64,000 nucleotides of DNA from Sphagnum magellanicum (taxonomy: Eukaryota > Streptophyta > Sphagnopsida > Sphagnales > Sphagnaceae). The position numbers were made by a program, and so were the translations under genes. Below the pieces are notes generated by a model. That model did not search any database. It was not told the DNA's origin and was given only the letters and a program-made list of their open reading frames with translations. Shown in pieces: positions 12,397-61,700 of this stretch; the stretch's first letter is position 1, and the number at the start of each line of letters is the position of its first letter. The stretch is taken from positions 10,586,041-10,650,040 of the forward strand of contig CM038917.1 of the NCBI GenBank assembly GCA_021904315.1, given 5' to 3'.

Positions 12397-12860
12397 TTAG
12401 TTTGCAATGGCCATTTTTTTTGATGTTTTAAGGTTGCTATGTTGCATATGATGACTTACATAAAAAACGTATGGTTCCTTAAAATTCACTTGCACAGTAG
12501 ACTTGCTTTCATTCCTCAATTCTATAAACTCACGATAGAACCTAATGGTGGGATACAAGGTGGTTTTCAACTTACAAGGCATCAAACTGACTAACTTTTG
12601 ATTCTTGGTGAAAAAAATCTCTCCTGTTACATAATTGACCCCTGCTCCCACAATGTCCCCCTTAGTGTAGCTTGAGTCAAAGTCCAGCCCCAAACCTTGA
12701 ATCACACCTTCATAGTCGTTGTGGCTATCATTTTGTTTTGTAATTATGAGATCCACCAAACTGGGATGCTTCAGATTGTATTCTTGGTGTCTTTGGAAAG
12801 CTCTTGAGTAGGAGGGATGCATGGGATTGGTTCCACTACGTTTGGACTTGCAGTGCAATT
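12397..12860 (-). pseudogene. SPRY-domain relic of the ankyrin-PGG-SPRY family
   Basis: An open frame of 153 codons whose C-terminal half is a good SPRY end: VGAGVNYVTGEIFFTKN, then KTTLYPTI and VQVNFKEPYVF, nearly identical to the SPRY exon at 38421-39029. The N-terminal half is diverged from the intact gene but keeps a DYEGV...DSSYTKGD stretch in the expected SPRY position. Upstream (beyond 12860) homology to the gene stops, so ankyrin, PGG and the start of SPRY are absent. It is flanked downstream by the same sequence as the intact gene. Most likely a truncated duplicate; expression as a small SPRY protein cannot be excluded. Confidence 0.75.
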
Positions 12861-15030
12861 TAAAGTTCTTGAATATTGGATGATTTCTTCACTGAAAATT
12901 AAATTAAATCTTAGCTGATAATTCCAGAGGTATTGGAATAATGTGCCTTTGGTGTTGTTGGAAAGATCTTGATGAGTAAGATTTAATGAAATTTATTTGG
13001 TAAAACTTGGATTCAGAATGTGGGAGATACTGATTTAAAAGTGATTTATGCCAGTGCAAATTCAAATAAATTCCAAAAAACCAGGTTTTGAAAGGAAAAA
13101 TCAGTTGAGAATGTGGTACCACTTGAAGGCTTACCATTCAATTCAAGCATGATTTCCTTTCATATTTGGCTGTTCAAAACATCGACAGATACATTGCAAA
13201 ATAATGTTCACATGTTGAGTTCCCCTATTCTGTAATGGGTTCACACTTGGGCCAATGGCACAGGTCACACTAGTATATATCAAAAGGTAAAATCTTTGGA
13301 CAAACCATCTGGGGCAAAATTGGTTTTTAACATGTAATAAAAATGCACATGTTAAGAGTGGTAGGTGTGTGGTAAGGATGGAGCGGAAGAACCCCTTACT
13401 TTCGAAGGCTATAATTTTCACATTACTTAACAAAATTACAAAATTAGATGATTCAAAAGCCTATTGGAGCCTAGATGAGCAACAAATTATTTTCAGACTT
13501 CATTCTGCTGATCATGATGTCATTATCTTTAGATACACTAAGTGTTCACTCGCAGGTATGTTTATCTTACTCAAGGATGAATCAAACATTTTTATTTTTC
13601 CATTTTGACATTGGAATTCACCTTTGAAGGTTGTTTTAAAATTTCTAAAATGTGAATATTTTCTTTCATTTTTAAATAAGTAAATACATATTTTTTTGGT
13701 TTTAAAAAGAATATATGTTAAGGGGGTACCTAAACCCTACCCATCTACCAAAAGAAGTAATTTTTGTATGCATAGACCTAAATATCTCTGGAATTTTTTT
13801 AATGTTACTATATTCCCATGGAATGTTCTTGGGGTATATGTTGAGGTCAAATTCAAAGCTTCCTCGTTACAGCTAGCAATTAACAAATTTAGCATGGTTC
13901 ATGGAATAGAACAACTAGTGTTTTTCTTTAAATGCTAAAGTGTATTGGCAAGCTCCATCCAAACCCATGTGGAGGTATGATGCCAAGTTGAAAATGTGAA
14001 CACTAAGTGGTCATGGCTACCATTTATTTCAGTGAGGCAAATTGTAGTTCAATTTAAAGAAACAAAGTAAAAAAAACAACAAAATGGAACAAGTTACAAG
14101 AAGACTATGATGGACTTGGGGAGCAGGGGGAGGGGGGTCCAAACCAATGTTGTGCATGTAAGTGTCAATAATTGTATATATGGCATGTAAATCCCCTGTA
14201 AGTGTAAATCATTTTCACTTACACGGTTGAACTTTTTACACTTAGACCTATATTGTTGCCATCTATTTATCTTTTTTAAAAATTACATGAGGTCAATGTA
14301 AATATTTGTCAAATACATTTACATGGCCCTATCTAAATGTTTTGGGATGCATATGTGTAAATGTATATATTAAAGTTATCTATAAACCCACCTTGTGTTT
14401 GGGCCTCCTTTCATTCACGATTCCCTCTTTCAATGGTATACATAAAGCAAGGAAATTTTATGATGTCTATGAATGAAATGCTAAAATTCAACATTTAATG
14501 CACAAGGTTTGAAAGTAATTATAATAGTTCTACATGTAATAGTGAAAATATATGTAATGGAGGTGTTCAAGGAAAAAAAAAGACAAGATGAAATTTAGTT
14601 TACCACAAAAATTGATGGTTTTTGGAGTTCTTTGAATATTAATGTATTTTTTTTTTTAATTTCACCCTTTTTATGACCAAACTTAGGGTTCTAGTGTTAA
14701 TTAGTCCTTACTTTATAGATAATTTTACTACATTAATGCCCATATTTTTTTCTTGCAAATTCAGTTTAATTAGTTGTGGGTGCATGTTCTGATGGTTTTT
14801 TTCTTGCAATGAGCATTTTGGTTGGTCTATCACCAAAAACCCCAAGTAAAATTCCCCATTCCCCAATTAAAAATCACATTTCTTTACAATGTTTTACACA
14901 ACCATGTAAAACAATATAAGTGTATTTGTACATGGGACTCACATAAAACCATATAAATATATTTATTTTTACACTTACATTTACATTGTTTTACATAGCA
15001 TAAAATAAATGTACATGGCTTTACACTTAC
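12861..15030. other. Gene-free stretch with dispersed repeats
   Basis: 13040-13300 is an inverted relative of 6290-6480 and 31990-32170 (shared words around GATTTTTCCTTCCAAAAC). 13315-13690 belongs to a family with copies at about 19010-19350 and 48960-49215; its longest open frame here is disrupted in the others, so I do not call it coding. 14140-15030 is rich in short TTTACA/TGTAAA words. No gene recognised. Confidence 0.55.
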
Positions 15031-38420: not shown

Positions 38421-39029
38421 CTATGGAAAGAAAGGTGGAAAAGACAATTTAGTTTGCAATGGCCATTTTTTTGATGTGTTAAGGTTGCTATGTTGCATAT
38501 GATGACTTACATCAAAAACGTATGGTTCCTTAAAATTCACTTGCACAGTAGACTTACTCTCAGTCGTCAAATCAACACAAGTACCACCGAATCCAATGCT
38601 GGGATACAAGGTGGTTTTCAAGTTACAAGGCTTCAAACGGACTAACTTTCCATTCTTGGTGAAAAAAATCTCTCCTGTCACATAATTGACCCCTGCTCCC
38701 ACAGTGTCCCCCACAGTGAACTCAAAATCATCCCTGAAATTTTCAACCACGGCTACGTTATCACAGACGAAGATGCCATTACTATAATAGCCATAGGTGT
38801 TGGAATACCGCCCTGGTAGACTATCATTCTCGAAGTTTTCATTAGTAAAGCCGATGGAAACACGTGTATTCAACTCGTCCTTGATTTCGATCTCGAAGTA
38901 ATAGGACATTGTTTGCTCATGCCATGTTGCTGGTTGACAAGTTTGAATAGCAGCTTTAACGTAAGAACCCCAAGGCCATTCCCCGCTCCTGAACTTCACA
39001 TGTTGTGACAATTTACTAGTAATGACCAC
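38421..39029 (-). CDS. SPRY domain, probable 3' exon of the ankyrin-PGG gene
   Basis: An open frame of about 200 codons immediately downstream of, and sharing one base with, the stop of the ankyrin-PGG frame, one frame over. It contains a complete SPRY fold: SGEWPWGSYVKAAIQ, SYYFEIEIKDE, RVSIGFTNENFEN, YGYYSNGIF, FTVGDTVGAGVNY, GEIFFTKNGK, TLYPSIGF and VQVNFKEPYVF. The frame has no ATG before the domain (it opens at GTG), so it is unlikely to be a separate gene. The decayed paralogues also carry SPRY directly after PGG. I infer a fused protein, joined by an intron (a GTATGT donor at 39124 and an AAG acceptor giving 38993 would remove 131 bases and restore the frame) or separated by a recent frameshift. 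SPRY domains bind protein partners; here it would hang on the C-terminal side of the membrane domain. Confidence 0.8.
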   Translation of the reverse strand: MVITSKLSQHVKFRSGEWPWGSYVKAAIQTCQPATWHEQTMSYYFEIEIKDELNTRVSIGFTNENFENDSLPGRYSNTYGYYSNGIFVCDNVAVVENFRDDFEFTVGDTVGAGVNYVTGEIFFTKNGKLVRLKPCNLKTTLYPSIGFGGTCVDLTTESKSTVQVNFKEPYVFDVSHHMQHSNLNTSKKWPLQTKLSFPPFFP

Positions 39030-39124
39030 TAAAAGGTCACTACTAGTTTTCGTGTTAAGCCATGTTTGTGAATCCTCCTTTCCATCTCATCATCTGTGTT
39101 TACTTCTCCTTGCATAAAACATAC
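38994..39124 (-). other. Candidate intron linking PGG and SPRY exons
   Basis: GTATGT donor at 39124 and GTGAAG| acceptor ending at 38994. Removing 131 bases (not a multiple of three) joins the ankyrin-PGG frame to the SPRY frame just before FRSGEWPWG. The length is close to the gene's other introns (106 and about 110). The pyrimidine tract is poor, and other donor-acceptor pairs are possible. Confidence 0.4.
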
Positions 39125-42100
39125 AGTTTGCAACCACGCCCAAAAGCTTTTATGCAAGGTTACGCACAAATTGTAACCCTTGGATGTTGTTTCCTCTTCC
39201 ATATCTGTTGTCTCCTCTTCCATCTCATCATCTTTTTGTTCCCTTTCCAGGACATTGGCCAACGATTCTCTCAACTTGCCCAAGAATTTAATCATCGTCC
39301 AACTACAAATTGCCAACCCTATTACTACAGAAATCTTCATGCTTGTCATGTCCTTGTGAATTGGTGGTAGCACTGCAAAACCCGCACACACAAATGATAC
39401 CAGTACTGTTCCTACGGAACACAAAAGTAGTATTGATGTCCATTGTAATTCCTTGCGCACAGAGCGCAACGCCACCACAATGAAAGTAGTATCCAAGTCA
39501 GGGAAAGCAGCTTTTGCCCCTGAGATCACAGTGCCGATTGCGAAGAAAAAAGACAAGGTGTTAAACACCCAAAACAGGCGAAGACTGTAGTGCAACTCTA
39601 CAGCTGCAAAGGACTCAAATACTCCAGGAGGGGTTGCAAGAGAAGATTGAGGGAACTGATAGTCAGTGGTGTAACCCAAGGGCGGCTGTAACCAACTTGC
39701 AAATGTAATCCCAGCTATGAGGGCACCCCCAACAAGAAGTGCATTCGCTGCATCGATGAAGACTTGTCTATCTCTGTATTGTCTGTCCAAGAAGTCTTTC
39801 ACGTCAGAGCGTTCCATGAGTCTATTGGTAATTTCTTCAAATTTCTCCTTGCGTTGTCTCTCCAAAAGAAATTTGAACTTTGAACGCTCCAAAAGTTTGC
39901 TGTTGCTATTTTGTTGGCGTTCTTTGGCATATTGAAGACATGTTTTGCCATTTCGATCTTGTAAGTTTGCTCGCAACCGTTCTTCTTTCGCTAGACATAA
40001 AGCCTTCACCACATTTGGTTGACACTTTATAGTAGCAAAGTGTAGGGCTGTCTGCCCTTTTTTGTTTCTCCCATTCAGGTCCACTTCTGCTTTCAGATTC
40101 AACAACTTGTTCACAATGTGAACGTGCCCCTTAATGGCAGCAAGGTGAAGAGGGCTATTTCCACGAATGTTGATTGCATCAAGGGCTAATTCTCCCACAC
40201 GCTTCAACATCACATCCACTACCTCATCATGCCCTTCCTTACAAGCAAGGTGCAATGGCGTATTCTCCTCCTCGTTTGTTGCGTTGAGGTTCAACTTAGT
40301 GGTACGCTTTTGATCATTATTCATTTCTGTGGAACCTGAATCAGTCGTTTGTTGAGTATCATCGAACTCCAACAACATGGCCACTATCTCATCTTGCCCT
40401 GCTTCAGCAGCAAGGTGTAGTGGTGTATTATCACAATCATTTGTGATATTTAACTCCGGTTTAGTTCCTGCACGCTCCAACAACTCCTTCACCACCTCCA
40501 CATGCCCCTCTTCAATAGCCAGGTGTAAGGGGCTATTCCCATCCACGTTCGTCTTGTCCAACCCGCACTTTTCACCATCAGCATGTTCCAAAAGCACCTT
40601 TACCACCTCTAGATAGCCTCCTTTAGTAGCGAGGTGCAATGGTGTATTGGAAGCCTTGTTTCTCGCACCCAGTTTCAATTTAAGACCACATCCCAACAAC
40701 ACGTCGACCACCTGAACATGCCTTTTTTCAACAGCGAGGTGTAGTGGTGTGTTTCCATCGTTATTCTTGTCATCGAGATCAAATTCGGTAGCTGCGTGAT
40801 CCAACAACACCTGAACTACCTTATCATGGCCGTTCCTGGTAGCTTGGTGTAGCAAAGTGTTTCCGTTAGCATTCTTCACTTCCAAGTCCAATGTGCTACA
40901 ACGTTCCAACAAAAGTTGCACCACCTCCACATGCCCTCCTTCAGCAGCGAGGTGTAGTGGTGTATTTTTGTCGTTGTTCTGCTCCTTGAGGTACGATTCA
41001 ACGTGGTCCACCACAACTTTCACTTTGTCAACATTCCCTTCCTCACTGTCTAGGTGGAATTGTATGTTTCCATCCATGTTCTCCTCATTGAAGTGCACCT
41101 TATTGGCATGTTCTAATAACATGTTCGTCACTTCAACACACCCGCTCTTGGTAGCAATGTGTAGTGTTGTGTTTCCACTGCAGCTGTTCTTCCTAGTGAG
41201 GTCCGATTCAGAAGTGAACTCCAACAACACCCTTACTACTGCAACATGTCCCTTGTCAATTGCAAGATCCAAAGGTGTAAAGGAATTGGAGTTTTGAGTG
41301 GTTAAGTCAATCAAGCATGCATCTTGTCCAAGGAACCTCTCCACAACATTCACGTGCCCTGCTTGTGCGGCAATGTGCAAGGGTGTGCAACCTTCGTCAT
41401 CTTGGACATTGATTTTGATTCCTGGCTCTCGAAAAAGCAAGTCGACAAGTTCCGGAGATCCTGTCCGTGCCGCAAAGTGCAGTGCCGTGAGATTGGTACT
41501 CCTTTCCTGTTTCATTGGTCGAAATAGAAGGAACTCCTTCTCAAACTCTAATGGCATCATATATATGCTCGGTTTTTTATTTGTTGAAGGCATCCCTGAT
41601 CCCACGTTTATGTCAATGTTTTTTACATGGAGCAACAAGTTCACTATGGCTTCTCGATTATCAGCTTTTGATCGAGTAGCCACGTGTAAGGGCGTGAGTC
41701 CGTGAATGTCTTGCGCATTTATGTCAATGTCATCCCACTTGAGTAACTCCTCCACTACTTCCACACTGTTGCATTCCACCCCGTAGTGAATAGGGAACCT
41801 CTTGAAGCCATCGCTTCGGTTCAAATGGCAGCCAACATGTGATGATCTCAGTGTCCTTTCTGCTTGAAGAAGCATCTGCATCACCTTGCATCTGTCTTGC
41901 TGTGATCGTCTGCTTCCCAAATCGCGATCAGGATTCTCGTCGCCTTCTGCTACTAGATGGAGAGCTGTCATCCCAACGTGATTGGTGGCATCAACCTTCA
42001 CCCTTGGATCCTTTATTAGAAGCTCCACAACCTTTGGGCAAGCGAACCTTGCCGCCACATGGAGAGGAGTTCTTTGGTGTGCGGTAGCATTCACGAGTAT

Positions 42101-42506
42101 TTTGGGGTGTTGAAGCAACAATTTGACGAACTCCCACCTTTCGTCCTTAGTTGACGCTATGTGCAGTGGTGTTCGAGACAAAAAATCATGACTATTCACG
42201 TCTATTGTAGGATGCTCCAACAGGGCCTTTGTACATATTCAAAACAAAGACGGAATCAGTTGAAACACACACAAACAAGAATTATTTTAGTTATTTCGTT
42301 ATGCAAGAGTCATTCAATGGAAGTGATTCTACCTTGGCAACACCCGTGTCTGGATTATGCCGTATTGCTTTGTGGAGGGGGCAATAGTTATCGAGGAAGC
42401 GTCCCTTTTGTTCGTTCACGTCCACATTCGATCGGTTCAACAATAGGTTCCGCATCTCGTCTTCACTACCAGAAAATGCTATATTCCACAACTTCTTTTG
42501 TGCCAT
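39029..42506 (-). CDS. Ankyrin-repeat membrane protein with PGG domain (ACD6/ITN1-type)
   Basis: Exon 1 (42333-42506) starts at ATG 42506 (MAQKKLWNIAF). Exon 2 starts at 42226 and runs to TAG at 39029-39031, giving about 1,123 residues. The junction GCCAAG|GCCCTG joins in phase inside an ankyrin repeat. About 20 ankyrin repeats follow (TPLHLA-type cores such as NTPLHLAAEGGHVEVVQLLL), at residues ~40-840; one near the middle is degenerate (FHLDS). A short basic helix is followed by the PGG domain from about residue 883 (AANALLVGGALIAGITFASW) with four hydrophobic helices, then an acidic DDEMEEETTDMEEETT tail. Relatives act at plasma or endomembranes in plant immunity and stress signalling. No break is visible in exon 2. 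It is the only intact member of the family here. The true C-terminus is uncertain because the SPRY frame may be spliced on. Confidence 0.9.
42227..42332 (-). other. Intron 1 of the ankyrin-PGG gene
   Basis: 106 bases, GTAGAATC at the donor and ATGTACAAAG at the acceptor. Splicing restores an uninterrupted ankyrin repeat (VAKALLEHP), phase 0. Confidence 0.85.
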
Positions 42507-45993: not shown

Positions 45994-46231
45994 TTTGGGT
46001 TGGAAATTGCTTCGTCCACACAAATACATGTGCAGATGGCACAAAATGGAAAAGTTCACGATTTATGTGCAATTTCTACCAATTATGATGATCGGTGTAC
46101 AACTTTTCAAATTTTGGGTTGGAAATTGCTTCATCCACACAAATACATGTGCAGATGGCACAAAATGGAAAAGTTCACGATTAATGTGCAATTTCTACCA
46201 ATTATGATGATCGGTGTACAACTTTTCAAAA
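45994..46231. repeat. 119-bp tandem repeat, two nearly identical units
   Basis: Units 45994-46112 and 46113-46231 start TTTGGGTTGGAAATTGCTTC and differ at only a few positions, so the duplication is recent. The ORFs across it are repeat by-products. Confidence 0.92.
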
Positions 46232-47420
46232 ATTGTCTTTATTTAACCACAGATCCCTACTATATATTTCATACTACTATAAACAACATCACTTATGACA
46301 TGTGCTTTTTTTAATCAAAAATTGAGATTTTTTGGAATTCTTTTTTCCACTGTAAACTAATTCAACTAATTTTAATATCAAAGAAAATTCAACATTTTTT
46401 CAATATTGCAAATTAAGGAAAAAAAAACTCCCCTGCTTTCAACTGTCTATGCAGGACTTGGAAGATCTTTTCCCCAACCAGATCATTTTATTGTATAACC
46501 TCTATACAAATGCAAATGAATATTTAGCCCAATGGCATGTTATGTGAAAACTGTGCTGTGTCCTTGGAATGTAACAACGTTTTCAGCTGTGTTGGGCATA
46601 AAAACTACCATAGAAGTTGGACATTATATGGTGTTAGTACCTCCCCCATGGCCTCCCCCAAGGCCATTGGGTTGTTAAGTTCCAGTTGCCCATGGAGTTG
46701 CTTTGCTTTGTTTGATGGCCATCTTTCAATTTGATTTGAACTGTATTAAAGTTTCTCCAATTATCCTCATGTTCCCATAAATTTCATCACCTGTTCCCAA
46801 GAAGTCCAAAGTTGTTCTAGGGGGAAAAAGAAAGGATTAATACCTTTCCCTAGCTGCCGGGGTAAATGATTCTTAACAATTCTAGCTAGTGAATGTGCTG
46901 GATAGAATTGTAAAGAATAGGACCAAAATTGGCATTTTTGAATTGCCCAATATCAACAGCTAGTTATAGAGAAGAAGCCAACTCGCATTGAACAAGGACA
47001 ATGAATGGGCCAAGCTTGATTTGCTAGTACAACTAGATCAGTTGATCAGCAACTGAATCACCAGCAATTGATTAGGTCAGTCAAGCGAGGCTGTCATCAG
47101 TCACCGACCATCACATCACATCTACCGCAATTATTTATTGCGCCCAGTGTTTTGTTTCTTCAATTTTGTGATGTTGCTTTAGTGGTGATCAACATTCAAA
47201 ATATGAGAATTCAAATTCTTAAGCACCCTTTCATTCTGTAGGCAATTGTGGCAATTTTTGGTTTTCTTTTGGAGTTTTTACTATAAAAAGTGAAAATTTT
47301 GACAGAACATTTTGTTGAAAAATGGCGAAAATTTTCCACCAAAAAAATCATCAAATGGGCTGTGCCTTTATGCAAGGCTTACACACTCACTTGGGTCAAA
47401 ACACTATACGCTAAAACTAG

Positions 47421-49230: not shown

Positions 49231-51000
49231 AATTTAATTTTTTAGTTCATTTGATTTATGTCAAACTTGAATGATGTTGAGCGCCGTAGTACTTGACTGG
49301 AGGACCCAAGCTTTTTCTCCTCAACTATATAATTATACTGCACTGAAAGTCATGTCTGTCGGAGAAGAGATTGAAGATTAGCTCAAGATTTCAATAACAG
49401 AAGTTTCACTCTTTGTTTGCAGGACACGCCTCAGGGGAGTGATGCAAGAGAAGCGACTTGCATTCATCTTCTGAGCAGTGGTTTTTTTCAGGAGATTTGT
49501 TGGTCGCCAAACTGGCTACCATTGGTAGGAAGATGTAGAAAAAGTGACCATCATCCCTCAGAAGATTTACCCAAGTGTGGTTTTCAACCAGAAATAAAGT
49601 ATTAATCTTTAATTATCCTTTTACATTTTTGGCTACATAATGAAAACTAAATGTTCGAATTTGGAGATTACTATTATTATTTTCCACACTTCTGCAGAGT
49701 GAAAACCTTCAAAATCGCTTGTTCTTAGCTTTCAATTTCGCCAGTAAGAAAAACGCTGCTTCTGAGGTGCTGCTGGTGGAACGTAATACCAAGTCGGAGA
49801 AAGGATACGCGCGCCCTGGTAGAGAAATTGTACAACCCACTATTCTTCCCTAAACCCACACACTTGTAGTGCAGCAGTAATCATGCTTGTCAGATCATAA
49901 ACGAAGTGGGCAATTTGACGGTAAACTCCTGCACACAGCTGAGCTCTAATGCTCTGTGCGAGCTCCTGTTATGTGTCTCTTTAATCATACTTTTGTATTT
50001 TTGGGTTCACAATGAAACAAAATATACAAATATGGGAATTATTATTATTATTATTTTCCTCATTTCTGCCCACTGAAAACCTTCAAAATCACGTATTCTT
50101 AATTTTGTATTTCGTCAATAAAGAAAAACGCTACTTTTAAGGTGCTGCTGGCGGAACTTTGTGGAACTTAATACCAAGTCAGAGAAAGGGTACGCGCACC
50201 CTGATACAGAAATTGTACAACCCGCTATTTTTCCTTACGACCACAGAAATGTAGTGCAGTAATAATCACACTTGTCAGATCATAAAGGATCTGGTTCAAT
50301 TTAGCGGTAAACTTCTGTAGACAGCTGAGCTCTCGTGTTCTGTGCAAACTCCTGTTGTGTGCCCGAAACGCTCAGGGCTACTCTAGTACACGGGAACCTA
50401 CTTGCATCCATTCCGCAGGAGCCTGCTGCCAGCAATTATGCAAAGCTGATGAGTACTAGCTAGGCAACATTCAAAGGTTCATTCATTCCTACCGATTTGT
50501 TGTGAATGGAAGAAAGTGGATCCTGAATGCGAATTCAAGTTAAAGGGCTGTAATTTTGTTTTCAATAATTTTTGTGAATGTGTTAAATCATATTGTGAGA
50601 ATGGAAATGAATGTGAGGGTTTCAACTTCTACCACTTATTTTCTTTCGTAACTTGCAATTTTCAACATTTTCAAACAAGTTTCCAGTTGTATGTCGTAAT
50701 TTTATTTGCAATTTTTTTTTTAAAATTCTTAATTAGAAAAATACATTCTTTCACTTTAAACACAATCACAGATATAGAACACATATTGAAATTTGGGATG
50801 GGGACATAATTCTCCTCTTAGGGCATTACAGGTGGTTTAAAGGGACTAACATTCCAAATTTCCTAGTAGGAATGGAATTTATTTTTTCTACTGTAAATTC
50901 GATTTTTTTATTATTTAAAAACATTCACCTGTTTTTCAATATCACAAAATTGGGAAACAAAATAAAATAAAATAAGCAAATCCCTGCTTATGACTGTCTA
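49231..51000. repeat. Block C copy 2, left part
   Basis: 49370-51000 matches 44166-46460 with rearrangement. A sub-module starting near AGAAAGG(A/G)TACGC and containing AATTGTACAACCC occurs three times (44585-44850, 49795-49975, 50180-50430). It ends at the retroelement's target site. No gene. Confidence 0.7.
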
Positions 51001-51004
51001 TGTG
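51001..51004. repeat. Target-site duplication, left
   Basis: TGTG here against TGCG at 60491-60494. The difference is a CpG-to-TpG change. The undisrupted sister site at about 46460 reads CTATGCAGG. Confidence 0.7.
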
Positions 51005-51288
51005 TGTCATGCCCGTACATGGCCTCATACATGATGGCCAGTTACGGGCATGCCCATGTGTGTTTTAGGGTTGATGTACAGTCTTAGGCGACTATACGCT
51101 ATTAGATACTTAAGGTTTGTTGACGATGATATAAAAGGTCCAAACCTTCCTTTCTCCTTTAGTTTTTCTAGAATTCCTTTGTTAGGAGTTTCCTCCATCA
51201 TAAGCTAGGATTTTCTAGATGTTCACGACGACCATTGCAAGGCCACCATTTACATACACTTCATTTCTTTCTTACTTTGCATCTCAAT
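51005..51288 (+). repeat. Terminal repeat A1
   Basis: 284 bases, TGTCATGCCCG to CATCTCAAT, the same length as A2 at 60031-60314. It directly abuts the target site on the left. On the right it passes into leader sequence not present after A2. Confidence 0.95.
51130..51136 (+). promoter_or_regulatory. TATA box of the retroelement
   Basis: TATAAAAGG inside A1, conserved in A2 at 60156-60162. It would start transcription about 30 bases downstream. Confidence 0.6.
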
Positions 51289-52395
51289 TCTAGAAAAACT
51301 ACATTTTCTGTGCTTCATGTTGAAAGCCACAAATTTCTTTTGCTTGTAAGTTCTTAAGTTTTTTTTAAGTTATCGTTGCTACTTATAGTGTTACTGGTGC
51401 TATTAATGATGTTGCTACCGGAGGGTGCTAGTGTGCTGTTGCTACCGAAGGATGCTAATGTGCTGTTGCTACTGGAAGGTGCTAGTGTTGCTGCTGTCGC
51501 TAAAGGGAGTTGACGTTGAAAAAGGGAGTTAACAGGAAAGAGCTTGCCAACCAACAAAGCCGGAAAATAGGTTTCGAAGCCTGTCTCTTTTCTCTTTCTC
51601 TTGCTCTCGTTCTCTCTTTGAAACTGTCGAGTAAAAACAAAAAAACCAAAACAAAAATTTCAGTGGCCGCCGCCTGCCATCGCTGCAAAGCAGCGTAGCG
51701 CCGCCTGCCAGCCCTGCTCCCTGCCGTTATCATGAGCTCTAGTGTCGTTCGCCATCCTTGCTTAGTGCACTACCATCTGCCGTTATCGCGAACTACAGCA
51801 CCACAACACTACAACGTCGCAGCTTCGCGCGTCGTAGCTTCGTGAGCTGCAACGTCGCAACGTTATTATAGCAACAGCAACGCCATGGCATCATAGCGCT
51901 GCAGCAACAACAGTGTTGCGAGCTATAGCACCATTGCTATCGCAACATTGCAAGTGACAACGTTGCCATCGCTGCGACCTTGGTTCGTTCAACGTCTGTC
52001 CGATTTTTATCGGACGATTCGTTGAACTTCCGTCCGTTGGACTTTCGTCCACGGACTTCTGTCCAAACAACATCTGTCCACGGACTTCCGTCCGTTGGAT
52101 GAACAACTTTCGTCCACGGACTTCCGTTTGTTGACGAACGACTTTCGTCGAACTTTCGTCCATGGATTTCCATCCGTCGGTCCTACATCCTGCGCCCTGC
52201 GCCCTGCGCCCTACGTCCTGCGCACTGATGTCCTACATCCTGCTGCCCTGCACCCTATTGTCCTACGCCCTGCGTCCTATTTTTGTCGTCCTGCCTTTAG
52301 AGCAACGCACTGTATTCTTCGAACTATATGTTGGGTTAGAATTTTGTAGTTAATGTTACATACTATCACAAAATTTCGAGGTATGGGACAACAAC
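51289..52395 (+). other. Retroelement leader with tandem repeats
   Basis: Contains three 27-bp units (51411-51437, 51438-51464, 51465-51491; GTTGCTACYGRAGG type). After about 51990 it has long runs of CGTCC/CGGACTT words and then CCTGCGCCCTGCGCC words, much richer in C and G than the flanks. No primer-binding site complementary to a usual plant tRNA end was recognised directly after A1. No ORF is supported. Confidence 0.7.
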
Positions 52396-53718
52396 ATGTC
52401 CTCAGATGACAAGAGCATCATTGCTCAACCAGAGCCCAGGTATCAGCTACAAAGTAACACACAATCTTTTGAGCCGATTTCTTTAAGCTCACGAACTTCA
52501 CAACGATACCATCAAGTGTCTACAGCACCATCGTCATCTAATACAACTCCTACCAAGGATTCAGGCTCAGGTTACACTACATCAACGGTACATCAGAGTC
52601 CATTTGTAGGGGTTCATTAGTGGGGTACGTGTGTTACCGCACCTACTTTCATACCATCACCGTATATTTCGTTGCAAACTGTGACTTCAACACCTATATA
52701 CACCATGGAGGTCAGTAGTTCTTTTGGGAGAATTGAGAAATTCAGCGGAAGGCCAGGTACTATTTCTTTGAGGGAGTTCAAGGCAACTTTTTCAACTGTG
52801 ATTTATGAATTGGAGCTCAAGTATGGCACTAATTACACCGAGGCTTTTGCATTCAAACAATTGGCTCGTTATGTGCACTATGAAGCATTGGATGTCTATG
52901 AGCAACATTCTGCAAGGATTTTGGATGTCACCCAGATTCCCAATCCAGCTTACGCCATAGCCATTGCCACTGCCTCTCAAGCTGCATTGCAAGTTGCAAT
53001 TGCACATCACGGAACTGTGCTGAATAATCCAGACCCGGTACCTACCTCAGTAAACCTTTCTCCTCAACAACTCATTGTTGTTACTGCAAACATTCCTCCC
53101 ACCATTGATGCGCTAGCTTTTGCTGATCCAGTGGGGGAATTCTTTCGAATTCTTGAGCTAGAATTTCCAGTCAAAAGTTCTGAAAAAATTCTGCAGCTCG
53201 CCACCTTCTCTCAGCAAAAGGATGAAACCCTCAAGATGCTCTACAGGAGGCTTCTCAAACTCAAAGAGGATACTCAGAGCATCACTGACTTGGAAGCTGC
53301 TCACCGATATCTTCGTTCGTTGGAAGGTACTCCAACACTCCACGCACAGGTTTTGCAACGGGTCTTTGCAGAATTTGGAGACTCGTACAGTTTGTTAGAT
53401 GTGTACAACATTTCTGAAAAGTTGGAACTAGCTCATGCACACTATGAGGCCAATACTATGAGGCCTCCATCACGTTCAAGGCCTCAACCTGCACCAGCTG
53501 CGCCAACTAGATCGTCACATTCTTTTTCAAGGACTAAAGCGGTGCACTCAGCTACACCCATCCTACCTTCTTGCAACTACTATGGCAATCCTGCCCACAA
53601 AGCTAGTGAATGCAACATTCCTTCCGAGGATCTCTTTTGTGATTATTGTGGGAAAGAAGGACATCAAGAATCTGTCTGTTTTGCCAAGTTCCCAGAGCGA
53701 AAGCAACTCCGATTATAA
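52396..53718 (+). pseudogene. gag (capsid/nucleocapsid) of the retroelement
   Basis: Frame from ATG 52396 (MSSDDKSIIAQPEPR) to TAA 53716, interrupted by TAG at 52618-52620. The capsid-like helical core (52700-53460) resembles Ty3/gypsy gag (RIEKFSGRPGTISLREFK, then AFKQLARYVHYEALDVYEQH). Two zinc knuckles close the region: one intact CCHC (CDYCGKEGHQESVC) and one with its second Cys replaced by Tyr (CNYYGNPAHKASEC). The terminal TAA is probably an internal mutation, since the same frame continues beyond it. Gag would assemble the particle and bind RNA. Confidence 0.85.
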
Positions 53719-54897
53719 CAACAAAATCTACTAGCATCTTCCACTGTACCTAAACCAAAAGCCAAGGCACCTCAGCCTTCCGCTCAAACTTTGCCCACCA
53801 AAGGTAATTCCAACAAGAATGTTAAGAAGAAGGATCACAATGCTAACAAGAGGGAGGTGCTTCAAACCCATGCAATTCAAGTTCAAACTTTACAAAATGA
53901 ACTTCAATCACTGAGGGCTCAACTTGCTAATCTAAAAAGCAAGTCCTCCCAACCAGCTAATCATGCCCAACCTGTACAAGGTTCAGGATCACGAGAGGGA
54001 CCTCCTAGGTCATTCTACGGCCTTCCACACGATGCCATGGTTGGGGAGTACGTTCTTTCCACTCCACACAATTCTAGTCTCACACCAGAATTGGCTACTT
54101 CTTTTTGCCCTTCCTATGTTGCGGCACAAGAAGCTAGTGTGGCACCCAGAATTTCTACCACTAGGCAAGTAATTCAGACTGATGGACTCGTATCTGGTTC
54201 AAGTCCTATTACCAGGGCTAGAGGAGCTCGAGCAGTCATGCCACAATCTTTTCGTCCTCTCAACATGGAAAAAGAACGCACCTTGTTGGCGAAGGGGGAG
54301 GAGACTACTACACCACAAGCTGTTAGGGCATCAAATTTTCGTGTCCCAGGAGTACATGTACATCAGGAAAACACACAATTTTCCACTGATCAGCTTATGC
54401 AATGCTAACTTCAAATGCATGAAGTGGTGCAAAAGCTTGTGAGTACACCATTATTTAATTTTCAAGATTTGAAGCTAAGCACCAAGGACATAATTGCAAT
54501 CTTAAAGGATACCTTTAACATTACATCAAGTCCTCTACCAATCCCTAATCCACATGCTACAGAGGTCCCATCCAACACCTTGGAGAGACAATCGATTGGC
54601 TCACATGTTGCAGATGGCGTTCGTAATTTGGTCACTAGTCCTAGCATGGCTAAACTAGTAGGCTTTCCTACCTCTGATTCTACATTCACATATCAGAAGG
54701 GAGTTCAGAACACCTCACTTGTGGATTTGTTACTTAGCAAAGGTGTTGTGGATAGCCATTCTCTCCATAACGTCTCTCACTCATTTCCAAAGGTGGTGCC
54801 TAATGAGAGAACTTCCATCCCCACCGGAGTTACCATTGTCGACAATAATGGGTCAGCAATCCAAATGGGAGGACATACACCTAGAGTAATACTTTTT
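53719..54897 (+). pseudogene. gag-pol linker with coiled coil
   Basis: Same frame as gag, carried on past TAA 53716 and broken again by TAA 54406. 53850-53950 encodes a heptad-rich segment (VQTLQNELQSLRAQLANLKS), a likely coiled coil. The rest is Ser/Pro/Thr-rich with no known domain. Confidence 0.6.
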
Positions 54898-55500
54898 GAC
54901 ACACAGGTGCCCAACCAGTGATTCTTGGAGTTAAATTCGCTAAGAAGATGGGCATGCTTGACTCCAAACTACGAAAATCTATGTGGCAAATTCGCATCGC
55001 TAGTGGGAGCGTAGAAGAGGTACTTGGGGAAAGTTCGGATTTGATTACACTTAAGTTCAATGAAGGTACAGATCAGGAGCTTTGCTTACAGGTCAGATGT
55101 TTAGTCACCAATGCCACAAGTTATGATGTGCTCATTGGGCAAGAGGCCCTGTTTCCACCAGGTTTCACAATTGACAACTGGTTTGAACATGCATATTACC
55201 TAGTGGATTGGGAGACTGATGGCCACCACCTGGGATACATACCCCTTGATTTACATGGGAACCATAGTCCTATGGCTCACCATTGTATGCTCAAGGAAGC
55301 ACGCACCATTTCCTACATCCAACAAGCTAGCCACGAATGGATAGAGGGAGATGAGGAAGAGATAGCTTATGCTCAAGCTACTGAAAGCTTGAAGGAGGTT
55401 CCTACTGACATTCAACATGGACCAGAGGTTTTACAAAGGTTCAAAGTAGCTCACAAGCCTTTGGTCAAAGCTTTGTCTAGTTTTGAGAGCATGGAAAGCC
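54880..55500 (+). pseudogene. Retroelement aspartic protease
   Basis: VILFDT, then a frame change, then the rest of the active-site loop and AKKMGM. The catalytic DTG triplet is split by two extra bases (CA, 54904-54905) inside an ACACACA run. Downstream are the flap-like IASGSVEEVLGESSDL and DVLIGQEALF, the usual second hallmark of gypsy proteases. It would cut the polyprotein; the frameshift makes it non-functional unless frameshifting occurs. Confidence 0.85.
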
Positions 55501-56540
55501 ATGGCGAACTGATTAAGCCATTACTTCGTCAACTAATCACCTGGACACCACCTAAGGAAGGGATTACATTACTAGAGCTCTTTGGTGGTATTGGTACAAG
55601 TCTCGAAGCCCTACTACAGTCAGTGATGGTGGTTCGGAGGTATTTCTACATAGACATTGATCCTATTGCAAGGCAAGTGGCGGCATCAAGAATGAAAGAG
55701 TTCACAACAAGATTTTCGCAACAATTTGCAACCACCGCATGGAAGGCTAGTTTCACATTTTTGCCCTCTGACATATAACTAATTTAGAAGAAGCATATGG
55801 AATTATTTGGCCCTGCTAACCTCATCATTTCAGGTTGGGAGTGTCAAGGATTTTCAGCGGCTGGATTTGGAGAAGGCTTGAATGACACAAGATCTGGTCT
55901 TTTCACGAACATGGTACGATTAATCACTTGGGCTCAATCCATTTCTCCTATACTTGGTTATGTAATTGAGAACACTCCTTCTCAGCTTGATCAAAGGGAG
56001 AAAGTCCAGGAGCATTACACACTGGTCAAGCATTACCTTGGAGAACCGCTCTTACTAGATGCGGCACAATGTGGTTCCTATGCGCATTGGCTGCGCAATT
56101 GGTGGACCAACTTGGCACCATTCTCAGTTCTGTAGCTAATTCTGAAATACACTATCAGAGACCCGTACCTGCAGGTTTTTCACATACTGGATGATCAAAG
56201 TTCTTGCCAACTAGTTACAAAGCAAGAAAAACCTCCTTGGTTTCCTGCGAACACAATAGGAAAACCAAGAGGTGCTTGGCCCACCTTTGTCTCCTTCCCA
56301 GGAGCACACGCCTTTCAAAGAGATGGGCCAGGCCTGGTGTATCGTCATGCTTTAGCCACTTGGGATGAACCAAGCCCAGAAGAAAGAGAAAGGGCTATGG
56401 GGTTCCAAGCTAGCACTACTAGTCACACTAAGGTGATTAGATTGGAGCGTAATGCTCTACTAGGGAGAGGCATGGACCTGAACTCCCTTACATGGTTGTT
56501 GGTAACTTGTGTACTTTTTCAAATGTACATAACACCAACA
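55500..56540 (+). pseudogene. DNMT3-like cytosine-5 DNA methyltransferase domain inside pol
   Basis: About 330 codons in the protease frame, before RT. Motif I (AdoMet): LLELFGGIGTSLEALL at 55569. Acidic D-I-D-P follows. Motif IV: GWECQGFSAAG, catalytic Cys codon 55842-55844; the usual Pro before Cys is Glu. Motif VI: VIENTP, catalytic Glu codon 55968-55970. Motif VIII region: LLLDAAQCGSYAHWLRNWWT, resembling the DNMT3 D-A...S-A-A-H-R-x-R-x-F-W block with one Arg changed to Trp. Motif IX/X: EERERAMGFQ and RNALLGRGMDL, resembling DNMT3's MERVFGFP and LLGRSWSVP. Motifs run in I-to-X order as in DNMT3, not permuted as in plant DRM. Stops at 55776 (TAA), 55785 (TAG) and 56133 (TAG) break it. It would methylate C5 of cytosine, perhaps the element's own cDNA. 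The domain is absent from ordinary plant gypsy elements. Confidence 0.92.
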
Positions 56541-58260
56541 CTAATTCAATCAACTTGCAATTCTAGCGATGCAACCACATGGCACCGCGACCAAGTACAC
56601 TTGCTTATCTTCAACACTCTACATTTCACTCTCAGTGTTGGGGGGGAGGAAGTACCATGTAATTTGACTCAAGTTGTGTCTAATACACCTGGAGGTGCAT
56701 CAGCTTCTGGAGAAACAATCGTAACCTTCTACGAATCTACGCAGTTGGATAGTGGAGAACCCAATACACCAGGTTCTTCAAACACACTTTCCAACTCCAT
56801 TCCAAGTGTTTCCAACTACCCTTTCATTATGGGGAACCAGCTCACCAAGAGGAAAGAGACCAAGTCACAAACTTGCTAATTAAGTATGAGAATGTGTTTG
56901 CATTCTCAATGAAAGACTTAGGTAGGTGTAAGACCATGTAGTTCTCTATAGACCTTACAAATGAGACACTCGTCTATCGAAGGAGGCATAGGTTGAGCAA
57001 ACATGAATGGGAACTGGTAGATGAAAGATGCAAAGAGCTCCATGAGGCCGGTCTCATTCAACCATCAAGTTCTGATTTCGCAGCCGCTATAGTAATGCTA
57101 GCAAAGAAAGATTCAGCTGGATTATGGACTTAGAAAAGGATGTGCGGGGATTATAGGCCTTTGAACCTAGTTACACCGTAGGATAGGTACCCCATGCCCA
57201 TCCCTGAAGAATTGTTTGATAGCATTGGAGATTCAAACATCTTCACAATTGTGGATTTGAGGCAAGGTTTCAACTAGATTGTGCTCGCTGAGAAGGATCG
57301 CAAGAAAACAACATTCCATGGAAGCAACAAGTTATGGGAATGGCTTGTGATGCCTTTTGGATTGAAGAATGCACTTGTCTTCTTTCAAGAGTCATGGACC
57401 AGGTTTTCGAAAGGGTAGATTTCCTGAAGTGCTACATAAATGACGTCCTAGTGCATAGCAAGGGACTCCTACAGCATTTGGCTCATCTTGAGGAGTTATT
57501 CAAGAGGCTCCACAAAGTCAATATGAAGATCCATCCTAAAAAATGTGAGTTTGCTGTCACCTTAGTAATCTACCTTGGACATAGAATTTTGCCAAATGGT
57601 ATTATGGCTCATTGGGCCAAAGTAATAGCCATTTTGGAGATGCCCAATCCTACTGATGTTCATACGTTGAGGAGCTTCATCGGACTATGTAATTACTACA
57701 GAATTTATGTCCAAGATTTTAATACTATTGCTCATCCTCTTTATGCATTGTTAAAGAAGGGTGTTGTTTGGACATGGAGTGATGAAGCTCAGGAAGCTTT
57801 CAACACACTCAAGGAAAAGCTTTCAGAGTTCCCCATTCTGAGAAGACCTGATTTCAACAAGGTTTTCATTCTACACACTAACTGGAGTGCTCTTGGTATT
57901 GGAGCTATTCTTGGCCAACTTGGTGAGGAAGGCAAGGAATATATTATCGCCTATGCATCTCGAAGCAACAACAAGGCTGAGAGCAACTACTCTTCATACG
58001 AGGGGGAGTGCCTTGCAACAGTATGGGCCGTCATACATTTCAGACCCTATCTTTATGGCACCAATTTCAGTTTGTATACCGACCACCAGCCTATCAAGTG
58101 GTTGATGACCAATGATAAGCTTACTGGTAAGTTAGCTAGTTGGGCGCTTATACTTCAAGAGTATGAGTTCAAGGTTATTCACCGACCTGGTATTACACAT
58201 CAGAATGTGGATACCATGTCACGAAGACCCCTCACTACCTCTGAAGATTTTTCAGAAGCC
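56541..58260 (+). pseudogene. Reverse transcriptase and RNase H
   Basis: The RT starts in another frame around 56830 (LLIKYENVFAFSMKDLG), with HEAGLIQPSSSDFAA, RMCGDYRPLN, FTIVDLRQGF (motif A Asp kept) and WLVMPFGLKNA. It then shifts frame near 57370 to VMDQVFERVDFLKCY. The motif C box reads YIND instead of YIDD (Asn codon 57439-57441). Stops: TAG at 56939, 57131, 57179 and 57275. RNase H (57780-58230) has LHTNWSALGIGAIL, where the first catalytic Asp is Asn (57880-57882), then SYEGECLATVWAV and YTDHQPIKWL. Both Asp-to-Asn changes are G-to-A. This copy could not reverse-transcribe. Confidence 0.9.
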
Positions 58261-59268
58261 AGGCAAAATTTTGACCAGATTCTAGCAATACCTATATCTG
58301 AGGCATCTAGTTATCTTGCACTACTGCAATGCAACTTGGTTGAGCATCCCATTCTCGATATATGGGAGGACTTGAACACTCTGAGGTTTCTTCAACATGG
58401 GGAATACCCTCCCCAAGTTACGTCAAGTCAGCGAGATTGCATACAACAGCGGTCCAAATGCTATTCATGGAGGGACAATCACCTCGTTCGATGCTTACCA
58501 CAAGGTAATAGAATGGTTCCACCACCACATGAACGGTTTGGTCTTATTCAAAAGGTACACTCGGAGCTTGGACATTTTGGACTTAAGCGTACTTATAGCC
58601 TTCTCGCTCCTCATTACCATTGGAGAGGTATGTATGCTCAAGTCCGAGACATCATTGCTAGGTGTGAACAATGTGATAAAGTGAGAACTTCTTTCTCTTC
58701 TCGACAACACACGCTTTGTCCACTCCCTATTCAGGGCATGTTCTATCGTTGGTCATGTGATTTACTTAGAGAGTTACCACAAACCTTTAGGGGTAATGTT
58801 TACATCATGATTATGATTGAGCATTTTTCAAAGTGGGTTGAGCTTGTTACGCTACCAGACAAGTCATCACATAGCACCAGTCAGGCTTTCTTACAACAGG
58901 TTCTAAGTAGATTTGGGGCTTGTGCTGAGTGCCTTACTGATCAAGGATCAGAATTCAGGGGAGAATTCCAAGACCTACTTGACCATGCTCTCATTGACCA
59001 TCGTCGGACTTCAAGAGATCATCCCCAAGCTGATGGCCTTGCAGAAAGGATGGTTCAAACGTGCAAGAAAGAATTTCGAAAGATTTGCTTCACTAAGAAC
59101 AAAGAGGATTGGGACTTGGCCCTCCCTTACATCGCCATGGGTTACAGGATGTCCAAACACGCCTTTTTATCTCATTTCTCTCCTTACTTTTTACTTTTTG
59201 GGAGACACCCCATTCCACCCTCTTCCATTACTGCTCAAATGGACCAGGTTGTGGACTTGGATTCCTAG
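58261..59268 (+). pseudogene. Integrase zinc-binding domain and DDE core
   Basis: HHCC zinc domain: HSELGH, then CEQC (58555-58680). Catalytic triad intact: Asp 58759-58761 (SCDLL), Asp 58939-58941 (LTDQGSEF), Glu 59044-59046 (DGLAERMVQT), spacing D-59-D-34-E, standard for retroviral-type integrases. No tyrosine-recombinase motif (R...HxxR...Y) was seen anywhere in the element. The frame ends by a small indel at about 59262; the C-terminal domain continues in the next frame. Confidence 0.92.
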
Positions 59269-59804
59269 CCACTTGGGCTAAGGTCATTGCAGAAAGGGTT
59301 GCTCTATTCAGGAGGGTTATGCCCATGGCCATGGAAAACTTGTCCATTGCACAACATCGAGACACCTTACGATATGCACACACATGAGGTGGCAGTTACA
59401 AACCTAAGGTGAGACAATTTAATGTTGGTGATTTTGTGTATCTTCAGCGACAACCCAATGATACTTTAGACACTTCTTCCGGTCGCACTATCTTGAGGAT
59501 TAAGGCGATCAGGCCTTCAGGTGTGTTGAAGCTACAAGGAGCTGACAGACGCACAATTCGGGATCATTCCAAAAATTGTGCGCCCTGCCACTTGCCAAAC
59601 TTGGACCCTACCATCATCACGTCGACTTGGATTCCTCCCCTTGATTATCCATGTCAGGTATGTCAGAGGACAGATGATGCTAATCAGATGCTGCTTTGCG
59701 ATAATTGTAATGGTGGATACCATCTTTTCTGTCTCAAGCCGGTGCTCACTCAAGTTCCTGTCGGCAATTGGTATTGTTCATCATGTTCTCTTACAGCACC
59801 TTGA
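59269..59804 (+). pseudogene. Integrase C-terminal part with PHD finger
   Basis: TWAKVIAERVALF, then TGA at 59385, then RQFNVGDFVYLQRQ, the usual integrase C-terminal SH3-like start. In the position where many gypsy elements have a chromodomain there is a complete C4HC3 PHD finger (59652-59786): CQVC, LLCDNC, YHLFC and WYCSSC. PHD fingers of this kind usually read the histone H3 tail, so it may steer integration. The stop at 59802 (LTAP*) is probably the natural end of pol. Confidence 0.88.
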
Positions 59805-59840
59805 TTCCTACTCAGACCATGCCATGCTTTTCCCAGCTTA

Positions 59841-59852
59841 GGTCTGGGGGGG
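59841..59852 (+). promoter_or_regulatory. Polypurine tract of the retroelement
   Basis: GGTCTGGGGGGG directly before B1, where plus-strand DNA synthesis would be primed. It fixes the reverse-transcription start of the repeat at B1, not at A2. Confidence 0.65.
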
Positions 59853-60028
59853 ATACATGAGAATTTCATCTCAGTCTCACTTGTGCATTGTATATATATG
59901 TGTGCATGCATCTCTTTTTAGTTGATTAGTTTATACATTTGATTGGCTTTAATCTTTTTGTTTAGTAAGATTTACTACATATTTACATCCTTACGACACC
60001 GTACGTCACGACATTACACGTCACGACA
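59853..60028 (+). repeat. Terminal repeat B1
   Basis: 176 bases from ATACATGAG to CACGACA, matching B2 (60315-60490) with few differences. It is followed by GC (60029-60030) and A2, making the near-palindrome CACGACAGCTGTCATG. Confidence 0.93.
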
Positions 60029-60030
60029 GC

Positions 60031-60314
60031 TGTCATGCCCGTACATGGCCTCATACATGATGGCCAGTTACGGGCATGCCCATGTGTGTTTTAGGGTTGA
60101 TGTACGGTCTTAGGCGACTATACGCTATTAGATACTTAGGGTTTGTTGACGATGGTATAAAAGGTCCAAACCTTCCTTTCTCCTTTAGTTTTTCTAGAAT
60201 TCCTTTGTTAGGAGTTTCCTCTATCATAAGCTAGGATTTTCTAAATGTTCACGGCGACCATTGCACGGCCACCGTTTACATACACCTCATTTCTTTCTTG
60301 CTTTGCATCTCAAT
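60031..60314 (+). repeat. Terminal repeat A2
   Basis: 284 bases, copy of A1 (51005-51288); contains TATAAAAGG at 60156. Directly continued by B2. Confidence 0.95.
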
Positions 60315-60490
60315 ATACATGAGAATTTCATCTCGGTCTCACTTGTGCATTGTATATATATGTGTGCATGCATCTCTTTTTAGTTGATTAGTTTATACAT
60401 TTGACTGGCTTTAATCTTTTTGTTTAGTAAGATTTACTACATATTTACATCCTTACGACATCTTACGTCACGACACTACACGTCACGACA
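60315..60490 (+). repeat. Terminal repeat B2
   Basis: 176-base copy of B1, ending CACGACA at the right target site. No counterpart follows A1. Confidence 0.93.
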
Positions 60491-61700
60491 TGCGAGACTT
60501 CAAAAGACCTTTCCCCCAACCAGATCATTTCATTTTATAACCTCTATACAAATGCAAAGGAGAATTCAGCCCAATGGCATGTTATGTGAAAACTTTGGTG
60601 TGTCCATGGAATGTAATAACCTTATTATAAGCGGTGTTGTGCATAAAAAACGACCATGGAAGCTGGACATTATATGATGTTAGTACTAAAAAAATGCATG
60701 AGGCAAACAGTGAGGAAAGATGGAATCCCACCAAATTCCATAACCAAAATACAGCTACATAATTGTTCTAAAAAAAAACACCTAGCAGACGCCATTCGCT
60801 CATTCAATCCATTTGTTGTTGGGCCCTTCCTCAACAGGGGACAGGGACCTGGCATTGGGTTCTATTTAGTTCCATTTGCCCATGGAATTGCTTTGCTTTG
60901 CTTTGCTTGATGACTATCTTTCAAATTGATTTGAATTGTATTAAAGTGTTTTCAATCGTCTTCATGTTCCCATAAATTTGATCATGTGTCCCAAGAAGTC
61001 TAAAGTTGTGCTAGCTAGAAAAAGGAATGAATGATACTTTTCCCTAGCTGGGGTAAATCATTCTTACCAATTCTAGCTAGTGAACCTACTGGCTAGAATT
61101 GTAAAGAATAGGACCAAATTTGGCATTTTTGAATTGCCCAATATCAACAACTAGTTATAGAGAAGAAGCCAACTCGCATTGAACAAGGACAATGAATGGG
61201 CCAAGCTTGAATTGCTAGATCAGTTGATCAACAAGTGAATCACCAACAACTGATTAGGTCAGTCAAGGAAGGCTGTCATCAGTCGCTGACCATCACATCA
61301 CATCCCTACTGCATTTATTTATTGGGCCCACTTGTTTCTTCAATTTTGTGATGCTCCATAGTTTATTTAGCCAAAATTGGCAATATCCAAAATATGAAAG
61401 TAAAAAATCGTAAGCACCCTTTCGTATTGTTGGCAATTGTGGCAATTTTTGGTGTTTTTGGTTCTTCTTTGCTGTTTTTTTAATTTTAAAAGTGGAATTT
61501 TCAACAGAACATTATTTCTCAAAATGGCGAATTTTTTTTCCACCAAAACATCATTGATTGGGTTGTGCCTTTATGCAAGGCCTACATATTCACCTGGGTC
61601 GGAACACTATGTGCTAAAACTAGCTTGGACCTTATAGTGAGAAATAGGTGATTTTCCTAGATTTTTGACCATTTTAAAAACTACATCAGCTGGGTTTTGT
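60491..61700. repeat. Block C copy 2, right part
   Basis: Starts with the right target duplication TGCG (60491-60494), then continues the host sequence matching 46461-47420 (CCCAACCAGATCATTT, then GCCCAATGGCATGTTATGTG). No gene. Confidence 0.8.

Follow-up and report, generated by a model that had tools for sequence, protein, structure and literature searches.

Can a retroelement of a land plant carry its own DNA methyltransferase (MTase), and how would such an element copy and insert itself? The question is raised by a stretch of 64,000 nucleotides from the moss Sphagnum magellanicum (contig CM038917.1; hereafter, the window), in which a decayed copy of a Ty3/gypsy element occupies positions 51005-60490. 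In the charophyte alga Klebsormidium nitens, the element KnitGypsy-Dnmt3 has an unpermuted Dnmt3-type MTase in frame in a gypsy pol and is present in several copies (de Mendoza et al. 2018, PMC5890265; this paper and those cited below by PMC number were available in part). Such transposons have been stated to be absent from land plants such as tracheophytes (PMC6338049), and a literature search, which covered few subscription papers and is no proof of absence, turned up no land plant for which a gypsy element with a DNMT had been reported. We consider it probable that the moss locus is one copy of a multicopy element whose gag-pol is a single frame, in which an unpermuted, DNMT3-like C5-cytosine MTase separates protease from reverse transcriptase and a PHD finger follows the integrase, and that the element would insert by the scheme developed below.

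The pol domains follow the order protease (PR), reverse transcriptase (RT), RNase H and integrase with a DDE core, as in Ty3/gypsy elements. The PR profile match is weak (E 0.018, below the cut-off), and those of RNase H and integrase are strong. Between PR and RT, the stop-free piece 55788-56135 matched Pfam DNA_methylase (E 2.7e-6; 27.5 bits, with a cut-off of 22), and the 341-amino acid (aa) domain, with X at its three stops, had DNMT3A as its first match among solved structures (5.7e-5); the placement of an MTase in this part of a gypsy pol, as proposed in the initial annotation, is therefore borne out. In the same domain we read, in the unpermuted order already noticed there, what we take to be motifs I (LLELFGGIGT), IV (ECQGFS), VI (IENTP), a VIII-like motif (HWLRNWWTNL) and IX/X (RERAMGF and LLGRGMDLN). 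Motifs I-X are thus arranged as in DNMT3, and the closest solved relative belongs to DNMT3A/B; the permuted catalytic domain of DRM enzymes, with motifs VI-X before I-IV, was not found. When a profile of nine element MTases was compared with solved structures, DNMT3A ranked first (2.3e-15), and lower ranks were taken by 4onj, titled 'DNA methyltransferase' and presumably the tobacco DRM (1.2e-8, over motifs I-IV only), DRM2 (5.8e-6), HhaI (6.7e-6) and DNMT1 (0.48). The host genome has permuted DRM genes (L033 and L034), a third DRM-type gene seen in part (L030) and one MET1/CMT-like gene (L031). Because the motif order of the element MTase is unpermuted and that of the host DRMs is permuted, we set the element enzyme apart from DRM, a class reported to be restricted to streptophytes (PMC12344493).

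The genome (438,994,042 bp in 31 contigs) was searched with the MTase region, and 40 of 518 first-look candidates were scored; all copies of this family (family 1) were sought by MTase similarity. Every one of the 40, the window's own match included, holds the whole MTase stretch at 94-100% identity, and together they lie on at least 18 contigs; the 20 copies that were fetched likewise all carry the MTase. Members without the domain were not seen in this MTase-selected sample, which favors a family trait, and the number of copies refutes a chance insertion in a single one. Contamination was ruled out, as the 40 scored copies lie on 18 numbered contigs, most of them over 17 Mb. A second genome search, with Pfam DNA_methylase, gave 124 matches from 123 scored of 387 candidates; the matches include host genes, and their open frames reach 2,379 aa. 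The window copy is broken: its MTase frame has three stops, its protease a frame change and its RT both stops and a frame change, and a further break separates the open reading frame (ORF) of the integrase from that of the PHD finger. Several fetched copies keep their coding sequence in a single frame, broken by individual stops, and 7 of the 21 MTase stretches are stop-free, which answers the suggestion that uninterrupted copies be sought.

Pairwise dN/dS was calculated among in-register copies (number, out of 20, in brackets). It was 0.36 for the MTase (20), 0.35 for RT (17), 0.35 for the integrase (14), 0.32 for the integrase tail (12), 0.27 for RNase H (14), 0.24 for gag (10) and 0.17 for the PHD finger (12); values for the protease and the gag-PR linker were 0.51 (20) and 0.53 (15), and those for the PR-MTase and MTase-RT gaps were 0.15 (20) and 0.60 (19). 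Pooled pN/pS of the seven stop-free MTases was 0.31. These ratios indicate that the MTase and the PHD finger are under purifying selection comparable to that on the core pol domains. Selection and the many copies together rule out a chance ORF.

We then considered the ends of the element. The outer ends, 51005 and 60490, were fixed by comparison with a paralogous empty site, which lacks the insertion and lies at ~46333-46640; next to it is a tandem 118-bp repeat, 98% alike (45994-46230). The element has a G+C content of 0.44 and a CpG observed/expected ratio of 0.52, richer than its flanks (0.35 and 0.32; 0.36 and 0.18). The end coordinates of the initial annotation are true; what did not hold is that these were ordinary gypsy ends. 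Identical long terminal repeats (LTRs), the integrated ends of Ty3/gypsy elements, were not found, and split direct repeats as in DIRS/PAT elements were found instead. The left end of the window copy is A1 (284 bp), and its right end is B1-GC-A2-B2; A1 and A2 are 96% identical, B1 and B2 97%, and B meets A in the palindrome GACA-GC-TGTC. The tyrosine recombinase and the lack of target duplication of DIRS/PAT elements were not found, the moss element having an rve integrase and duplications.

The ends of family 1 were compared in the 20 fetched copies and the window. The left end was covered in 11 fetched copies, 10 of which have A there and none of these 10 B; A was not found at the left end of the remaining one, L021. 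At the right end (n = 21, window included), nine copies have B-A-B, one has B-A, ten have B only, and in one the end lies past the stretch. Repeat A occurs in two lengths, 284 and 311 bp, and A1 differs from A2 by 1.0-5.6% in four copies compared, the window among them. At the joint of A2 and B2, CAAT is followed by ATACATG, as joined LTR ends would give. In copy L027, the right end stops inside A2 at ~9573 (oriented) and other sequence follows. Both ends could be compared for target duplications in ten elements (the window, eight fetched family-1 copies and one family-2 copy): a 4-bp duplication is exact in seven, and three of its four bases match in the other three. In the control, 1 of 90 mismatched pairings was exact, and shifted registers gave 0 exact. 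Exact duplications flank both B-only copies (L009, L012 and L022) and B-A-B copies (L017, L018 and L020). We conclude from these comparisons that two integrated forms exist, A-int-B-A-B and A-int-B, with 4-bp target duplications.

Two relatives were found. The second family, in the same genome, was seen in two copies (L029 and L032); its MTase is 42% identical to that of family 1, keeps the PCQ and ENV motifs, and on its own matched DNMT3A at 5.3e-11 among solved structures. Copy L029 has an integrase-PHD ORF, the ACGACAGCTGTCA junction without mismatch, B-A-B ends in which A2 is longer by ~190 bases, and TTTC as an exact target duplication. The third element is a 9,285-bp contig from the prokaryote-genome scan, CADCWO010000201.1 (L036, L039 and L040), titled uncultured Synechococcales; we read this title as a binning error because such an element is eukaryotic. 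It has a PR-MTase-RT frame, an RNase H-integrase-PHD frame and, by eye, gag-like sequence, as well as a polypurine tract and the same B-GC-A junction; the junction CGACAGCTGTCA is common to families 2 and 3. Its MTase, which also keeps PCQ and ENV, is 45% identical to that of family 1 and 50% to that of family 2. The contig, a retroelement contaminant in a public prokaryote assembly, ends in identical stretches of 127 bp, and its apparent circularity could have arisen when the repeats were assembled. The PHD finger lies at the end of the integrase frame in all three families. To judge from these sequences, the MTase, the PHD finger and the B-GC-A junction are kept together in three diverged families (MTases 42-50% identical). 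The initial annotation had missed the PHD finger, the split repeats, the second family and the third element; its proposed extension of retroelement MTases to a land plant is upheld by at least two families in the moss genome.

The same comparisons bear on the idea of an ordinary gypsy element, with LTRs of 460 bp (A-B), in which accidents removed B from the left end and added B1 at the right. A2-B2 alone does resemble an LTR with TG..CA ends, but B stands at the left end in 0 of the 10 fetched copies that have A there, B-A-B is seen in 8 of the 20 fetched copies, and the layout or the junction is common to the two other families; we regard this idea as barely credible. An accidental LTR rearrangement confined to one copy is refuted by the layout in other copies and families.

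No match was found in the viral-contig scans, either for the read-through MTase or for the pol ORF. A viral-contig scan by alignment gave one match (L035), 32% identical across motifs I-VI, and the prokaryote-genome scan gave a Streptomyces match of 34 residues (L037); neither was used.

The priming signals do not lie where the integrated ends would lead one to expect them. A G-rich polypurine tract stands directly before B1 in all ten sequences printed. In the window, the primer site is self-complementary over 13 nt to the sequence ~30 nt after the TATA box. All 11 family-1 sequences tested show such a match, of 9-13 nt, and in 10 of them the site abuts A exactly; the edge of A was set by the primer-site motif in most, and also by comparison of A1 with A2 in the window, L017, L018 and L020. 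Between 0 and 26 of 1,000 shuffles were as good. Because the copies are related, these 11 sequences are not 11 independent cases. Family 1 thus has, in 11 of 11, the Tf1-type arrangement of a primer site after U5 that is complementary to the predicted 5′ end of the RNA. With a polypurine tract before B1 and a primer site after A1, reverse transcription should make the LTR B-A, whereas the integrated ends are A on the left and B on the right, which places them halfway along that LTR.

The simplest reading of this mismatch would be that the element inserts from circles, which are opened at the palindrome. The RNA would start in A1 and, in family 1, prime itself, and the complementary DNA (cDNA) would have the LTR B-A. 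The integrase would act at the palindrome inside B-A, probably on circles, so that a two-LTR circle would give A-int-B-A-B and a one-LTR circle A-int-B. The MTase, made within pol, may methylate the new cDNA or circle, which would then resemble host DNA, and the PHD finger may read histone H3 at the target. As an account of a whole streptophyte gypsy lineage, in which circular cDNA is opened inside the LTR B-A to give the two forms, and the element brings its own writer and reader, the MTase and the PHD finger, to mark the intermediate and select the target, this proposal is tentative, and we would put it somewhat below an even chance.

Several observations weigh against the proposal. The activity of the enzyme and the RNA and DNA intermediates are predictions from sequence. 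One family-2 copy showed no sign of self-priming, with no self-complement above 7 nt, and in the third element, whose self-complement of 12-13 nt has a different sequence, the edge of A was placed by that complementarity. The B-only form can also arise after insertion, by genomic recombination of B1 with B2 that deletes A2 and one B, much as solo LTRs form. B1 and B2 are near identical (0-5% apart) and 460 bp apart, and the target duplication is kept in both forms, as such an origin would allow; it would need half of the copies (10 of 21) to have recombined between 176-bp repeats. We rate this origin of the B-only form as nearly, though not quite, an even possibility.

The split repeats also recall PAT/DIRS-type elements, which have the topology A1-int-B1-A2-B2 and are thought to close their cDNA into a circle. 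If the moss element, whose topology is the same, replicated in that way, B1-A2 would be the guide that closes the circle, an integrase would have replaced the recombinase, and the primer and polypurine signals would be secondary. A figure legend for KnitGypsy-Dnmt3 equates its repeats with those of a DIRS element (PMC5890265). The LTR-type signals, however, are placed exactly, with the polypurine tract at B1 and the self-primer at the end of A1; the 4-bp duplications and the DDE integrase are not DIRS-like, and the second A-B is missing altogether in 10 of 21 copies. Replication of this kind appears unlikely to us, and we retain the opening of circles at the palindrome by the integrase.

The MTase itself raises two further points against the proposal. 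In family 1, all 21 copies have Glu where Pro usually precedes the catalytic Cys, and ENT replaces ENV in 19 of 21, so that the family-1 enzyme may be altered. It could even be a DNA methylase no longer, kept for binding of RNA or S-adenosylmethionine or for folding of the polyprotein. Families 2 and 3, which keep PCQ and ENV, make the substitutions stand out, but in family 1 all 21 copies keep the motif VI Glu and 20 keep the catalytic Cys, and dN/dS is as low as that of RT; we regard such a loss of function as a minority possibility. Among 21 copies, 297 of 352 rare variants in the MTase stretch are C>T or G>A, distributed as 100 in CHG (86 sites), 48 in CG (44 sites) and 149 in CHH (395 sites), and 25 of 31 MTase stops can be reached from the majority codon by a single change of this kind. 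By this pattern the family appears to be undergoing methylation and decay in its host, and carrying an MTase therefore does not spare the element.

The second point concerns ancestry. By BLASTP, phage enzymes equal or exceed a 203-aa DNMT3A fragment in most pairs (74-91 bits as compared with 59 for family 2, 55-62 with 53 for family 1, and 45-62 with 53.5 for the third element). In a 13-row tree the element MTases form a supported clade (100/99), the deeper forks are weak, and DNMT3 and phage enzymes are not separated; the tree and the BLASTP set are without plant, algal or protist DNMT3 and without the Klebsormidium element. An origin from a bacterial or phage enzyme, independent of Klebsormidium and of eukaryotic DNMT3, would accord with these weak forks and with the 91 bits of the phage Epa40 enzyme (59 for the DNMT3A fragment, family 2). 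Yet the phage rows are the top scorers among 50,697 records, and DNMT3A is one distant animal enzyme represented by fragments; solved bacterial enzymes rank far below DNMT3A, and the DIRS-like repeats shared with KnitGypsy-Dnmt3, as these are described, speak for one origin. We judge a separate prokaryotic source improbable. Since the phage enzymes score as high and the deeper place in the tree is unsupported, we call the MTase 'DNMT3-like', a name that on present comparisons is fair, and not 'a DNMT3'. The initial claim of a DNMT3-like rather than DRM-like domain stands as regards motif order and best solved match, the deep forks of the tree being too weak to place it with or apart from DNMT3; its concern about bacterial affinity is met by the copy number and not by the tree.

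The closest published element is KnitGypsy-Dnmt3, in so far as its description allows comparison. The two are alike, by description only, in their gypsy pol, unpermuted MTase, several copies, purifying selection (MTase Ka/Ks < 0.2 in KnitGypsy-Dnmt3) and DIRS-like repeats, which in the alga were called the same as those of a DIRS element (PMC5890265). The combination that marks the KnitGypsy-Dnmt3 lineage, an MTase in gypsy pol with DIRS-like repeats, is by description present in the moss. The land-plant host, the PHD finger, the target duplications, the two integrated forms, the self-priming site and the three families go beyond that description; the word 'PHD' was not found in the main text of PMC5890265, as far as it was available. 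SymbioDIRS-Dnmt3 and the other Symbiodinium DNMT retrotransposons share a retroelement-borne C5-MTase but belong to other retroelement classes, and were independently acquired according to their authors (PMC5890265). In the same paper a retroelement DNMT is reported to methylate CG de novo in yeast, and self-methylation of cDNA is offered as a suggestion only.

The moss element differs from PAT/DIRS elements in its DDE integrase, in place of a tyrosine recombinase, and its 4-bp duplication. With Tf1/Sushi and the plant element Tcn1 (PMC6317226) it shares a predicted RNA start complementary to the primer site (in family 1, and probably in the third element), but adds the MTase, the PHD finger and the split repeats. 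That survey of plant LTR elements gives 12% as the share of elements with self-priming and 4 or 5 bp as the length of the target duplication in most lineages, and neither 'PHD' nor 'methyltransferase' was found in its main text, as far as this was available. Among known gypsy elements, a similar placement of a histone reader is seen in the chromoviruses. These have a chromodomain at the C-terminus of the integrase, where the moss element has a PHD finger instead. The best single finger among the five solved-structure matches listed was that of ATXR5 (57 bits); ATXR5-class fingers bind unmodified H3K4.

Table 1. Features of the moss element and its target site in the window
Feature	Position	Strand	Basis
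Paralogous empty site	46333..46640	+	matches flanks 50873-51004 and 60491-60686
Target duplication, left copy TGTG	51001..51004	n/a	3/4 bases equal to right copy
Split repeat A1, left end of integrated element	51005..51288	+	repeat comparison, empty site
TATA box (tataaaaggt)	51130..51139	+	sequence
Predicted RNA start, TAGTTTTTCTAGA, possible self-primer	51160..51172	+	reverse complement of 51289-51301; start inferred 30 nt after TATA
Primer binding site directly after A1 (self-priming)	51289..51301	+	complementarity
gag-like ORF; two CCHC-type knuckles seen by eye, with one Cys altered	52621..53718	+	ORF
Aspartic protease (DTGA), frame changes inside	54880..55160	+	DTGA by eye; PF13975 E 0.018
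C5-cytosine MTase stretch; stops 55776-55778, 55785-55787, 56133-56135	55530..56640	+	Pfam, structures, motifs
Reverse transcriptase, interrupted by a frame change and stops	56850..57600	+	profile search, family copies
RNase H	57850..58164	+	PF17917 E 1.4e-35
Integrase: zinc-binding domain and DDE core	58519..59025	+	PF17921 3.2e-15, PF00665 5e-13
PHD finger, integrase C-terminal end of pol	59652..59786	+	PF00628 E 3.3e-13; solved PHD fingers
Polypurine tract ending at B1	59841..59852	+	sequence
Split repeat B1	59853..60028	+	repeat comparison
GC between B1 and A2, center of palindrome GACAGCTGTC	60029..60030	+	sequence
Split repeat A2	60031..60314	+	repeat comparison
Split repeat B2, right end of integrated element	60315..60490	+	repeat comparison, empty site
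Target duplication, right copy TGCG	60491..60494	n/a	flank comparison

Elsewhere in the window, an ankyrin-PGG ORF of 1,069 aa (39029-42238, minus strand) and SPRY ORFs (38421-39086 and 12397-12888, both minus strand) were found, and one stretch recurs in several diverged copies within the first 39 kb. Ten further ORFs had no Pfam match at E 0.01, and tRNA and Rfam scans of the whole window gave no match.

At least two such families are present in the moss genome, and the capture of a silencing enzyme is therefore not confined to algae and dinoflagellates. The captured MTase appears to persist under selection together with the PHD finger. The mismatch between the ends used for copying and those used for insertion hints at an unusual way of insertion, and opens to test, in a plant whose genome has many recent copies, the insertion of a retroelement from circular DNA.

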